DNA of 64,000 nucleotides from NCBI RefSeq assembly GCF_025961475.1, contig NZ_JAOQNS010000001.1, forward strand, positions 62,001 through 126,000. The letters run 5' to 3'. The position numbers were made by a program, and so were the translations under genes. This stretch comes from Rhodobium gokarnense. GTDB lineage: Bacteria; Pseudomonadota; Alphaproteobacteria; Rhizobiales; Rhodobiaceae. How positions within the stretch are numbered: position 1 is the stretch's first letter; the number at the start of each line of letters is the position of its first letter. The notes below the pieces were generated by a model, which did no database searches, was not told the origin of the DNA, and was given only the letters and a program-made list of their open reading frames with translations. This document shows positions 31,389 through 35,169 of the stretch, piece after piece.

Positions 31389-31760
31389 CTACTTGCTGGC
31401 GGCGGCGCGGGCGACGACGCCCATGCGCAGGCGCACGGATTTCGGCACCTTCATGTCTTTCAGGAACTGGTCGGTGCGGGTGAAACCGCACAGGTCTCGC
31501 TGGATGACGGTGTACCAGAGCGTCTCGCCGGCGGCGTCGATCAACGCCGCATGCTCCTGCCGGCGCGGGTCGTCCTCGGCAAGGTGGGGGGCGGGCAGCT
31601 CCGCCTCGAAGTCCTTGAGTCGCTTCAGGCGCTTTTCCAGCTCGCGCAGCAGCCGCCCGAGCGTGCCGGCCTTTTCCTCCATCACCTCCCGGTCGATCGA
31701 CGCGGTCAGCGGATCGGTCAGGCCCCTCGGGGCGTAGAGGGAGGGCGGGCGGACGGACAT
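31389..31760 (-). CDS. DUF6665-like protein of unknown function
   Basis: A 123-aa helical cytosolic protein: TASIDREVMEEKAGTLGRLLRELEKRLKRLKDFE forms a probable coiled coil, followed by HAALIDAAGETLWYTVIQRDLCGFTRTDQFLKDMKVPKSVRLRMGVV. It resembles the short DUF6665 family of Hyphomicrobiales. No function is known. It converges on the DUF922 gene. Confidence 0.7.
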   Translation of the reverse strand: MSVRPPSLYAPRGLTDPLTASIDREVMEEKAGTLGRLLRELEKRLKRLKDFEAELPAPHLAEDDPRRQEHAALIDAAGETLWYTVIQRDLCGFTRTDQFLKDMKVPKSVRLRMGVVARAAASK

Positions 31761-32327: not shown

Positions 32328-33431
32328 ATGCTGCGTTTTTTCGACAGGGCTCTCAACAGGCAAGGAAGCCGGGAATATGTCGTCTTCAACTACGTTCTTC
32401 TCTTCCTGATATTCCTTTCGATTTTCCTTCTCGTCGTCGAAGTTCGCTACAAGGAAGATATCGGCCCGCAGATGGCGATGTTCGTCGACGTGGCGGATTA
32501 CGTGATCATCGCTATTTTTGCAGTCGAATACATTTTTCGGGTCGTTCTTGCGGAGAATCCGAGAAAGTACGTTTTCAGCTTCTATGGGGCCGTCGATTTT
32601 CTTGCTGTCTTTCCGTCCCTATTGATCTTTGCCTTCGGTGGGGCTGTCAGCGCCGGATTCTTCCGGGTCATGCGGTTGTTTCGCCTGTTTCGGATTTTGA
32701 AGATCGTGCGTTTCCGGCGCGAGCAGGATCCCTTCTGGAAGGGCGTCCTGGCGCAGACGGCGCCCTACATGGCGATCGGCATGGCCTTGAAGATCGTCGT
32801 GTTTGCGTTCGAGGATCAACAATGGGTTCCGGAGATCGGAAACCTCGGCACAGTGATCGCCGTGGTCGGCTTCTCCATAGGGGTTCTGCTCGGATCGAAG
32901 CTCGGCGTTGCGCAGACCCGTCTGCACAAATTCGAAGACAGCCTGATCGAAACCATCGGCCTGTTGGAGAGCATCCAGACGACCGTCGACAGGAGCTTGA
33001 TCCGGGAATGGACCGCGCAGTTGGAGACCTATTTCCGGACGGGTGAAAACCCAGATGGTTTCTGGGATGTGCACGATCGGCTGATCCTGAAGATGCAGGA
33101 GGCGAATATCGGGGCGCCGATCCGGGCATCGATCAATCAGAAGGTCTCTTACATCGTCTTTCGCATGAAGACCGAAACACCGCGCATTTACGATGAGTTC
33201 CTGCAGCGAATTCTGATCTTCTACGCCTTGGCCGTGATCATTTCGATCCCAGGCTTTTTCGGTTTTCTCAGCATCATCCTGATCTGTTATGTGCTTGGCG
33301 GCATGTATTTCGTGATCTGCGATATCGACCAGCCGATATCGCATAGCCGGACGGCGCAGATCGATGCGGATATCTCGCCGTTGCGCGACTACATGAAGCG
33401 ACTTGGCGTGGAGCTAGGGGGCGCGGCCTGA
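32328..33431 (+). CDS. Voltage-sensor domain protein with bestrophin-like C-terminal half
   Basis: A 367-aa membrane protein. Residues 19-130 form a voltage-sensor domain: S1 (19-39), S2 with the charge-transfer motif F64-x2-E67-x3-R71, S3 with D90 and P96, and S4 with R113, R116, R119, R122, K125, R128 at every third position. No TVGYG-type K+ pore follows. The rest has a fifth helix (about 146-161), a helix leading into a long soluble helical segment (172-290), two more membrane helices (293-331) and an ending CDIDQPIS...SPLRDYMKRL. This resembles bestrophin/DUF4239-type channels, which carry anions. That resemblance is by eye. The start at 32328 lacks a good Shine-Dalgarno. The gene is clearly AT-richer than the window (42% GC in the row 32401-32460). 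Confidence 0.7.
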   Translation: MLRFFDRALNRQGSREYVVFNYVLLFLIFLSIFLLVVEVRYKEDIGPQMAMFVDVADYVIIAIFAVEYIFRVVLAENPRKYVFSFYGAVDFLAVFPSLLIFAFGGAVSAGFFRVMRLFRLFRILKIVRFRREQDPFWKGVLAQTAPYMAIGMALKIVVFAFEDQQWVPEIGNLGTVIAVVGFSIGVLLGSKLGVAQTRLHKFEDSLIETIGLLESIQTTVDRSLIREWTAQLETYFRTGENPDGFWDVHDRLILKMQEANIGAPIRASINQKVSYIVFRMKTETPRIYDEFLQRILIFYALAVIISIPGFFGFLSIILICYVLGGMYFVICDIDQPISHSRTAQIDADISPLRDYMKRLGVELGGAA

Positions 33432-33509
33432 GGATTGGCTGTCGCGTTGCGGATCCAACGGTGCGATCGCGTCGGCCTCGCGACCGGAAAACATCCGGGT
33501 GGTTGGAAC

Positions 33510-34319
33510 TCACAACCTCTCCGAAAACGCGTGCTGGCATTGTTGGAAAGTCATAATGCTCGTAAGAAAAACGATGTAGTCCTGGTTAAAAGCTATATCC
33601 CATCGGTCGTAAGGTAGAAATGGAAAAATCAAAAAGAACGCATAAATAAAGATCATCGTTGCGCGAAGCCAGGATTCAAGCCGCGCGTAGGAAAGGGTGA
33701 ACTGAAACAGAGACAGGGCTATTGCCGCCATCTGAAAATAGAAAAAATGCGAACTATCATCGTATTTATACAGCCACATCATTCCTATAACGAACATACC
33801 GAGAAACAGTATGCCGCTATGTTCGACCAGCTCTTTTCTTGTGTATATGGGGGGAGGCTCTTGGGTCTGGCTCCCGGAGGTCGGTTGCTTCGGTTTCTCG
33901 TCGTTTGATACAAGCTGAGAGAACCGTTTCTCAAAATAAAATACATCCAATAAGACGAAAAGAAACGCACCGGCAACGAAAACAATGAATCTCCATTTTA
34001 AAGAATAGGGCGAACTATCATAGTGATAGTATGGAATCACCATGCAAATGGAAAATGTCAAATATCCGAGAATTACGAATCCTCGGGATAGGTTTGGCAG
34101 CTCTGAAAATACCAATATGAACCGGACAATAGATAGTACAAGCAATACCAAACTAAGAAGCGAAAATACCGAATCGAAGAAATTGTCTGCCGACTTTGCG
34201 AAAGTCGTAGCGGCGATGATCGCCAAGAAGATCGGGAGAAAAAATAGACCTCCCGTCGTTGATCCGAACCTTTTCCTTAAATAGCGCAGGGAATTCTCGC
34301 TGACTCGCGCTTCATTCAT
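33510..34319 (-). CDS. Novel membrane protein with two 4-helix units
   Basis: A 269-aa protein with about eight hydrophobic helices in two halves, joined by a hydrophilic linker (NDEKPKQPTSGSQTQEPPP). Each half carries the same pattern: a helix with LSIVRFILVFSEL (half 1) or LSLFQFTLSYARL (half 2), two further helices, and an ending DVFYFEKRF or QHAFSERL. The separate 136-aa protein at 34449 is one such unit. No family was recognised. AAGGGA precedes the ATG. GC content is low (43% in the row 34081-34140). It converges on the voltage-sensor gene, 78 bp away. Confidence 0.7.
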   Translation of the reverse strand: MNEARVSENSLRYLRKRFGSTTGGLFFLPIFLAIIAATTFAKSADNFFDSVFSLLSLVLLVLSIVRFILVFSELPNLSRGFVILGYLTFSICMVIPYYHYDSSPYSLKWRFIVFVAGAFLFVLLDVFYFEKRFSQLVSNDEKPKQPTSGSQTQEPPPIYTRKELVEHSGILFLGMFVIGMMWLYKYDDSSHFFYFQMAAIALSLFQFTLSYARLESWLRATMIFIYAFFLIFPFLPYDRWDIAFNQDYIVFLTSIMTFQQCQHAFSERL

Positions 34320-34448
34320 GGGTCGTCCCTTACAAACAATTCCTTCTGCCGGCAGGTGCTGAAAACTGCCCGTCTCTCCGGTAACATCCTTGCTCCCTAC
34401 CGTGGTTGGTCAATTGCCCTGTTCCTCGAACCGGCGTCCCGGCGCTGT

Positions 34449-34859
34449 TCAGCATTTCTCCAAATAAAATTCATCGAGCGATACGAAGTAGATCACGCCA
34501 CCAAAAAAAACAAAAAAGTCCAGATTATCTAGAAAGAAACTTGATCTGCTGAAGTCGAAAAACAGGTTTGTTAACACCGCGCAGGCAATGAATATGATGT
34601 AAATCGCGCTGATGACGATGCGGGGGCGGGGTTTCAAACGTGGGTAGACGAATGCGAACCGCAGAAGCGACAAGGCCGCGAACAGAAAACTGAGATATAA
34701 GATTATCGATTCACCTATATCGTTTGGAGCGACGCCGAAAACTGCGTAATTTAAGTTCAGTGCAATCATTATTAGGACCATTATGATCGCGGTATTTGAT
34801 GCGATCTTTCGTCCGAAGTGTAGAAGCGAAACTTTTCTGATCCATCCCTCGGTCATCAT
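34449..34859 (-). CDS. Novel membrane protein with one 4-helix unit
   Basis: A 136-aa, four-helix protein. Its second helix reads LSFLFAALSLLRFAFVYPRL and its end SLDEFYLEKC, matching both halves of the 269-aa protein encoded next on the same strand (LSIVRFILVF, DVFYFEKRF). Function unknown. Two adjacent ATGs (34859, 34856) are possible starts. GC content is low (45% in the row 34561-34620), unlike the roughly 75% of rows in the neighbouring uvrB. Confidence 0.65.
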   Translation of the reverse strand: MMTEGWIRKVSLLHFGRKIASNTAIIMVLIMIALNLNYAVFGVAPNDIGESIILYLSFLFAALSLLRFAFVYPRLKPRPRIVISAIYIIFIACAVLTNLFFDFSRSSFFLDNLDFFVFFGGVIYFVSLDEFYLEKC

Positions 34860-35169
34860 TCGCCCAGTGAGTCAACGATTGCGTATTGTGCGCGGATGTC
34901 GCCAACGATCACGGCGCTCCCGCCCCGGGAAAGGCAATCCGTTTGGCTTAATCCGTTTCAAATGGCTCGCGATCGTCCCGCCCGCCGCGCGCCCTGTCAA
35001 TCAGGAAGTGTGGCTGCGGCAACCGGGCGCAACTTTGAATTGGCGTCGGCGGTTCCCGGATTGCGCCGAGCCGAGGCGGTCCGACGGCAGGAGATCCCGG
35101 GTCTGCGCTTCGCTCCGCCCGGGATGACCGCGGGGTGGTGGCTGCCTAGGCCGGAGGGGGGCAAGGCCC
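34860..35169. other. Gap at the right edge of the membrane-protein island
   Basis: 310 bp without a convincing gene. Base composition returns to high GC after about 34900. It contains a single family A arm at 35091-35129. Confidence 0.5.
35091..35129. repeat. Family A single arm (relic)
   Basis: GAGATCCCGGGTCTGCGCTT, then CGCTCCGCCCGGGATGACC, is the complement of the family A left arm found at 24950. It marks the right boundary of the AT-rich island. Confidence 0.7.

Follow-up and report, generated by a model that had tools for sequence, protein, structure and literature searches.

A gene in the window, the stretch of 64,000 nucleotides of the Rhodobium gokarnense genome analysed here, encodes a voltage-sensor domain (VSD) joined to a body of bestrophin-like type. 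The VSD, the bestrophin-type order of motifs, a gap-free join between S4 and the first helix of the body (TM1) and the presence of the fusion in two orders together identify it as a conserved fusion of a VSD with a member of the bestrophin superfamily. The architecture is well supported, and the fusion can be read, with moderate confidence, as most likely a voltage-gated anion channel. Channel activity, anion selectivity and a pentameric state of the fusion protein are predictions from its sequence. Each half is of a known kind; their join is a new architecture.

The gene and its relatives

The coding sequence lies on the plus strand (window positions 32328..33431), begins with ATG and specifies 367 aa followed by a stop, exactly the open reading frame given in an earlier note on this DNA. 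A longer frame of 430 aa can be read from 32139. In a comparison with Rhodobium orientis, the DNA upstream of 32328 aligns poorly and with gaps and conservation restarts near the ATG, which makes the 430-aa reading unlikely.

The strain R. orientis DSM 11290 (genome G001) carries an orthologue with 94% identity. A distant homologue of 384 aa, 37% identical overall, is encoded in genome G729 (L087:7641-8795, minus strand), which belongs to the same class as Rhodobium and to another order, and which stands alone in its family and order among the genomes available. This protein shares its VSD and body with the window protein, retains the six S4 charges and has an intact frame. Because the fusion recurs in another order, it is no artefact of a single genome; the earlier note had asked for conservation of the fusion across homologues, which the same join at 37% identity provides, and had listed as a refutation that the two halves are joined here by error, which did not turn out to be the case.

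Matches at the level of the VSD were obtained in 53 of 297 genomes in a scan of the order and in 90 of 398 in a scan of the phylum. Full-length matches, judged by the listed ranges, occurred in two of the 297 genomes of the order, R. gokarnense and R. orientis, in agreement with a query using the C-terminal half, and in scans of the phylum in one genome each (1/398 and 1/249), the query's own. At class level, eight of 289 genomes matched at E <= 0.1, with strong matches in the own genome and G729 and six weak ones (E 0.0028 to 0.086), and five of 367 matched at E <= 0.01, the same two and three weak ones (E 6e-4 to 0.0034). The scans overlap, their counts are not additive, and they cover a small part of 97,973 genomes. 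Among the genomes sampled the fusion is rare, being found in R. gokarnense, R. orientis and one other. In a third genome of the genus (G002, 99% complete) nothing matched the fusion protein, which means either a loss of the gene in that genome or its acquisition by the other two.

Those of the weak matches to the C-terminal half that were opened proved, from their translations, to be unrelated proteins, namely ABC permeases (L039, L080), elongation factor Ts (L071), SecA (L081), an ABC exporter-type ATPase (L034) and an ATP-synthase b-like subunit (L074). The frames inspected at L079 contained no relative. Searches of viral contigs, plasmids and phages returned no relative of the fusion protein, and a search of viral contigs with one PF14023 protein returned none either.

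The voltage-sensor half

Residues 19-131 (32382..32720, plus strand) have the sequence of a textbook voltage-sensor domain with helices S1-S4. The Pfam family PF00520 (Ion_trans) matches residues 19-161 of the window protein with an E value of 2.3e-14 and 53.6 bits (cut-off 25) and the distant homologue with 59.1 bits, and the N-terminal halves of the three fusions align in hhalign to a profile of 34 VSD sequences with E 1.7e-28, so that the VSD expected in the first half was indeed recovered. In a PDB sequence search, the top matches of the window protein were to the voltage sensors of T-type calcium and Kv4 channels, with E values from 3.5e-11.

The features from which the earlier note had recognised the sensor can all be read in the sequence. 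The S4 helix (residues 111-130, 32658..32717, plus strand) bears a positive charge at every third residue, R113, R116, R119, R122, K125 and R128, invariant in the three homologues; S2 contains the F-x2-E-x3-R motif as F64-x2-E67-x3-R71, and S3 the Asp and Pro as D90 and P96. These residues of S2 and S3, the six S4 charges and E38 are unchanged in the 37%-identical homologue. Alignment to the same homologue defines the linker from S4 to TM1 (residues 129-139, 32712..32744, plus strand) and is gap-free from R113 to the end of TM1. The core of S1 (residues 19-37) holds no Asp or Glu, and S31 occupies the site that, counted from E38, corresponds to Asp112 of Hv1, the acidic residue in the middle of S1.

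Absence of a tetrameric cation pore

Reading of the sequence after S4 revealed no K+ filter of the TVGYG type in the window protein. For comparison, 37 loci with a VSD match were opened, and 34 of them gave a frame that aligned to the query at E <= 1e-3 (L022, L024 and L031 gave none and were left out of the filter count). A filter of the TVGYG, TTGFG or TTGYG type lies downstream in 33 of the 34, and the remaining one (L020) resembles a Na+/Ca2+ channel by eye. Against a profile of 36 K+ pore sequences the C-terminal half scored 17.0, much like an unrelated PF14023 control (16.8), versus 35.5 against PF14023. The pore signature that the earlier note had described as absent is therefore lacking as far as K+ channels are concerned, and with this pore-profile score the second half did not prove to be an ordinary S5-S6 unit. 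The label 'pore-less' that the note had attached to it holds in the sense that there is no tetrameric P-loop pore, but means nothing beyond that.

It is scarcely credible that the protein is a standard cation channel of six helices whose pore has diverged, or that it arose from an accidental gene join. The Ion_trans match does extend beyond S4, to residue 161, but the K+ pore score is low, about 100 mostly polar residues separate the two pairs of body helices, and the fusion is found again in another order.

Layout of the body

The bestrophin-superfamily-like body (residues 136-351, 32733..33380, plus strand), supported by hhalign, by the Pfam matches of the homologue and by dN/dS, consists of membrane helices that flank a cytosolic helical segment. 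Of the C-terminal layout described in the earlier note, the soluble helical segment and the CDIDQPIS sequence (residues 331-338) stand, but the two membrane helices become four: low-confidence AlphaFold models place a pair on either side of the soluble helices, in the expected order TM1, a long TM2 with a cytosolic extension, two cytosolic helices, a long TM3 and TM4. A simple hydropathy scan of the second half shows three helices only (140-158, 170-188 and 301-319), since the final hydrophobic stretch (about 291-331) has no break; its length would accommodate two helices, and the models split it at P308-G309.

Both single-chain models are poor (mean pLDDT 46 and 52), their confidence being too low because only two sequences were supplied. 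A Foldseek comparison of the models with the PDB gave nothing at E <= 0.001, and the bestrophin 7ek1 (VCCN1) appeared at rank 20 with E 4.3, which is noise. The monomer prediction suggested in the earlier note thus failed to reveal a bestrophin fold.

Similarity of the body to PF14023 and bestrophins

In Pfam, the C-terminal half of the window protein matches no family, PF14023 and PF25539 included. Searches of Pfam and NCBIfam with the window protein named the VSD only, the NCBIfam match having an E value of 1.6. The body of the distant homologue, searched alone against 24,736 Pfam models, matches PF14023 ('Bestrophin-like') first, with E 3.4e-4 and 20.7 bits, under the curated cut-off of 32, and PF25539 ('Bestrophin_2') second, with E 0.055 and 13.4 bits, under the cut-off of 27. 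The third match, PhyH, has a nearly equal E value of 0.059, is below cut-off and covers helical cytosolic residues only; it was taken as chance. PF01062 was matched nowhere, a result that is uninformative since the 14 controls gave no match either. A profile of the three bodies found no match in the PDB, and two chains of Cas proteins in the PDB sequence search (E 0.97, residues 166-238) were taken as chance.

Profile comparison used two alignments, one of 12 PF14023 sequences built from relatives and one of seven sequences from plasmid records annotated as bestrophins. Against PF14023, the three fusion bodies reached in hhalign a score of 35.5 (single-comparison E 1.6e-4, probability 50%); the default settings aligned 49 columns, and a relaxed posterior cut-off extended this to 217, all collinear. 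Against the bestrophins the score was 27.8 (E 0.0035, probability 9%), over 60 columns by default and 226 collinear columns at the relaxed cut-off. The two reference profiles match each other with a score of 40.9 and a probability of 65%. An earlier comparison of the two Rhodobium bodies with eight PF14023 rows, one of them misframed, was not significant (E 0.024, probability 2%) and is superseded by the 12-row alignment.

Two nulls were used for calibration. The first comprised 57 membrane-like ORFs from the window and from 300 kb of its genome, of which 56 are independent and the last is the long reading of the window protein itself (24.3 against PF14023, 21.0 against bestrophins); the maxima of the 56 were 27.6 and 23.1, respectively. 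The second, 200 block-permuted body alignments, gave maxima of 28.6 and 26.1; the ORF null is the weaker one because its members are single sequences and not profiles of three rows, and the permutations are the fairer test. The fusion bodies exceed all 256 null comparisons, by a clear margin for PF14023 and a narrow one for bestrophins, and the bestrophin match that the earlier note had proposed for the second half is to this extent found. Scored singly, the Rhodobium bodies fall within the nulls (25.3 and 25.2 for PF14023; 21.8 and 21.7 for bestrophins), and the body of the distant homologue carries most of the signal (37.1 and 29.9).

A relationship to proton-motive-force motors of the MotA/TolQ/ZorA type instead of bestrophins appears very unlikely. 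ZorA is the only NCBIfam match of the distant homologue's body (E 0.13), but it is far weaker than the PF14023 match of the same body and limited to residues 60-128 of the fragment, that is the long helix and the part just after it, whereas the match to bestrophins is centred on TM3, TM4 and the D-x-D-x-P tail.

In the joint alignment, residues 168-215 (32829..32972, plus strand), which comprise TM2 and the long cytosolic helix of the low-confidence models and form the core of the PF14023 match, align gap-free to bestrophin TM2, where '...GVLLGSKLGVAQTRLH' coincides with '...SLFLGFRNNAAYDRWW'; this segment, from TM2 onward, is the presumed pore-lining helix. The putative neck positions F182, V186 and S190, followed by K191 (32871..32897, plus strand), were placed by the same alignment, starting from the neck positions of the Klebsiella pneumoniae bestrophin, located on its chain sequence. 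The first two are hydrophobic and the third is Ser/Thr (Thr in the distant homologue), and K191 sits where the aligned bestrophins carry Arg. At the start of TM3, P285-x2-Y288 (33180..33191, plus strand) corresponds to P-x2-Y in six of the seven bestrophins. TM4 and the YVLGGMY...D-x-D-x-P motif (residues 310-336, 33255..33335, plus strand) are aligned to YVFFGLQ...E-L-E-L-P of bestrophins, YVLGGMYFVICDIDQP coinciding with YVFFGLQAVTNELELP. A motif written post hoc is present in all three fusions and in four of the seven bestrophins, and among 727,936 translated residues (window and 300 kb) only in the window protein; as it was fitted after seeing the alignment, it serves as an illustration and not as a test.

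Selection on the two halves

Selection was estimated with a Nei-Gojobori-type script on one pair, the two Rhodobium genes. The dN/dS ratio is 0.073 for the whole gene, 0.135 for residues 1-132, 0.005 for residues 133-352 (one nonsynonymous and 50 synonymous changes) and 0.54 for the C-terminal 15 residues. Every change within the cytosolic stretch 191-292 is synonymous. The body is under extreme constraint, and the whole-gene ratio, together with the presence of the same residues in the 37%-identical homologue, puts the features described above beyond chance.

The faster evolution of the VSD relative to the body would fit an anion channel in which this domain is structural or senses something other than voltage. 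Such a channel is nevertheless unlikely, given that the six S4 charges and the conserved residues of S1 to S3 (E38, F64, E67, R71, D90 and P96) are invariant at 37% identity.

A more serious, if still doubtful, alternative accepts the architecture but supposes that the PF14023-like body does not serve as an ion pore. The VSD would then control a non-conducting oligomer that acts, for example, as a scaffold or in signalling through its cytosolic helices, by analogy with Ci-VSP, in which a VSD controls a phosphatase. The unchanged cytosolic stretch and the polar third neck position are in keeping with this, and no functional paper on PF14023 was found, DUF4239 (the older name of the family) surfacing only in papers that are, by title, on other topics. 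Against it, the PF14023 and bestrophin profiles match in the same segment order, the presumed pore-lining TM2 included, and no credible enzyme family was matched, PhyH being confined to the cytosolic helices.

Proposed mechanism

In bestrophins and VCCN1, five subunits set TM2 around one anion pore with a neck. The bestrophin neck is described in a section of PMC9076864 as three hydrophobic residues on TM2. For the fusion protein, the favoured reading, a voltage-gated anion channel, could be realised as follows. With four helices in the sensor, the body would begin on the cytosolic side, which is what a bestrophin requires. Five bodies would assemble with their TM2 helices lining one central pore and the five VSDs placed around the outside of the pore body. 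As the sensor occupies the N-terminal position and S4 runs gap-free into TM1, the simplest reading is that S4 acts on the TM2 neck by way of the linker and TM1: its movement would be passed on to TM1 and TM2 and open the neck near F182, V186 and S190. There is a slightly better than even chance that the protein represents a new class, a pentameric bestrophin-type anion channel gated by five canonical S4 voltage sensors.

Comparison with known systems

VSDs occur as parts of tetrameric cation channels and of a phosphatase, and some form proton channels by themselves; all channels so far known to have an S4 sensor as their gate conduct cations or protons. No report of a VSD joined to a bestrophin was found in the open-access collection searched, judged by titles and the openings of abstracts. 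With Kv, Nav and Cav channels (Ion_trans) the fusion shares an S1-S4 sensor with canonical residues, but it has a bestrophin-like body in place of S5-P-loop-S6, for which the K+ pore profile only was compared. Hv1 and Ci-VSP likewise have a VSD without a tetrameric cation pore; unlike in these, the VSD of the fusion is joined to a putative pore body with no enzyme domain named, and unlike Hv1 it has no acidic residue in S1.

PF14023 proteins are collinear with the body over the 217 columns of the relaxed cut-off, with TM2 and the long cytosolic helix, and have by eye a Pro just after TM4 in all 12 aligned members. They differ in that the aligned proteins have no VSD in the part used, and the window protein itself has no Pfam match to the family while its distant homologue remains under the cut-off. 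Bacterial bestrophins (KpBest, PDB 4wd8 type; PF25539) share the segment order, the '...LG-x-[RK]...' of TM2, P-x2-Y before TM3 (6/7) and Y-[VT]-x-x-G-[ML]...[DE]-x-[DE]-x-P (4/7), but the seven compared lack a VSD, the cytosolic part of the fusion is shorter and the similarity is barely above the nulls. VCCN1, a bestrophin-family Cl- channel of plant thylakoids, is portrayed in parts of PMC9076864 and PMC4890181 as a bestrophin-type, voltage-controlled protein of a photosynthetic membrane with an N-terminal regulatory part, features that the fusion would share.

If channel activity holds true, the fusion would define a new class of voltage-gated channel, in which the sensor is a module able to drive an unrelated and quite different pore, and would offer a small bacterial model for the opening of a non-tetrameric channel by S4. 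It would also be a voltage-dependent bestrophin with a recognisable sensor, which is absent in plant VCCN1. Were it to act in a phototrophic membrane, bacteria would have an equivalent of the thylakoid control over the electrical part of the proton motive force.

Possible role and genomic surroundings

The protein would probably provide an anion conductance that limits or reshapes the membrane potential, as VCCN1 does in thylakoids, where according to PMC4890181 it tunes the proton motive force through anion movement. R. orientis is described in part of PMC6030561 as a phototroph with bacteriochlorophyll membranes, and a VCCN1-like role is therefore plausible. For Methylobacterium, PMC4271186 connects bacterial bestrophins with the export of chloride, without direct proof of a channel there. 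As the gene in G729 adjoins a likely anti-phage gene, another role is possible.

In G729, 127 bp separate the fusion gene from a convergent gene (L087:2940-7513) for a strong relative of the anti-phage protein PD-T7-4 (E 4.4e-82; DUF4145), and a weaker PDC-S11-like gene (E 5.4e-7) is found nearby, possibly forming a defence island. In the window, the minus strand upstream of the fusion gene encodes a small DUF6665 protein (E 5.7e-7; 31389-31760). Directly 3' of the fusion gene, about 1.5 kb (33467-34953) have no aligned counterpart in R. orientis, where some 0.5 kb stand in their place; this segment of the window has a G+C content of 44-49%, compared to 56-69% in its flanks, and contains two ORFs on the minus strand (33510-34319 and 34449-34859) for membrane proteins without a family name.
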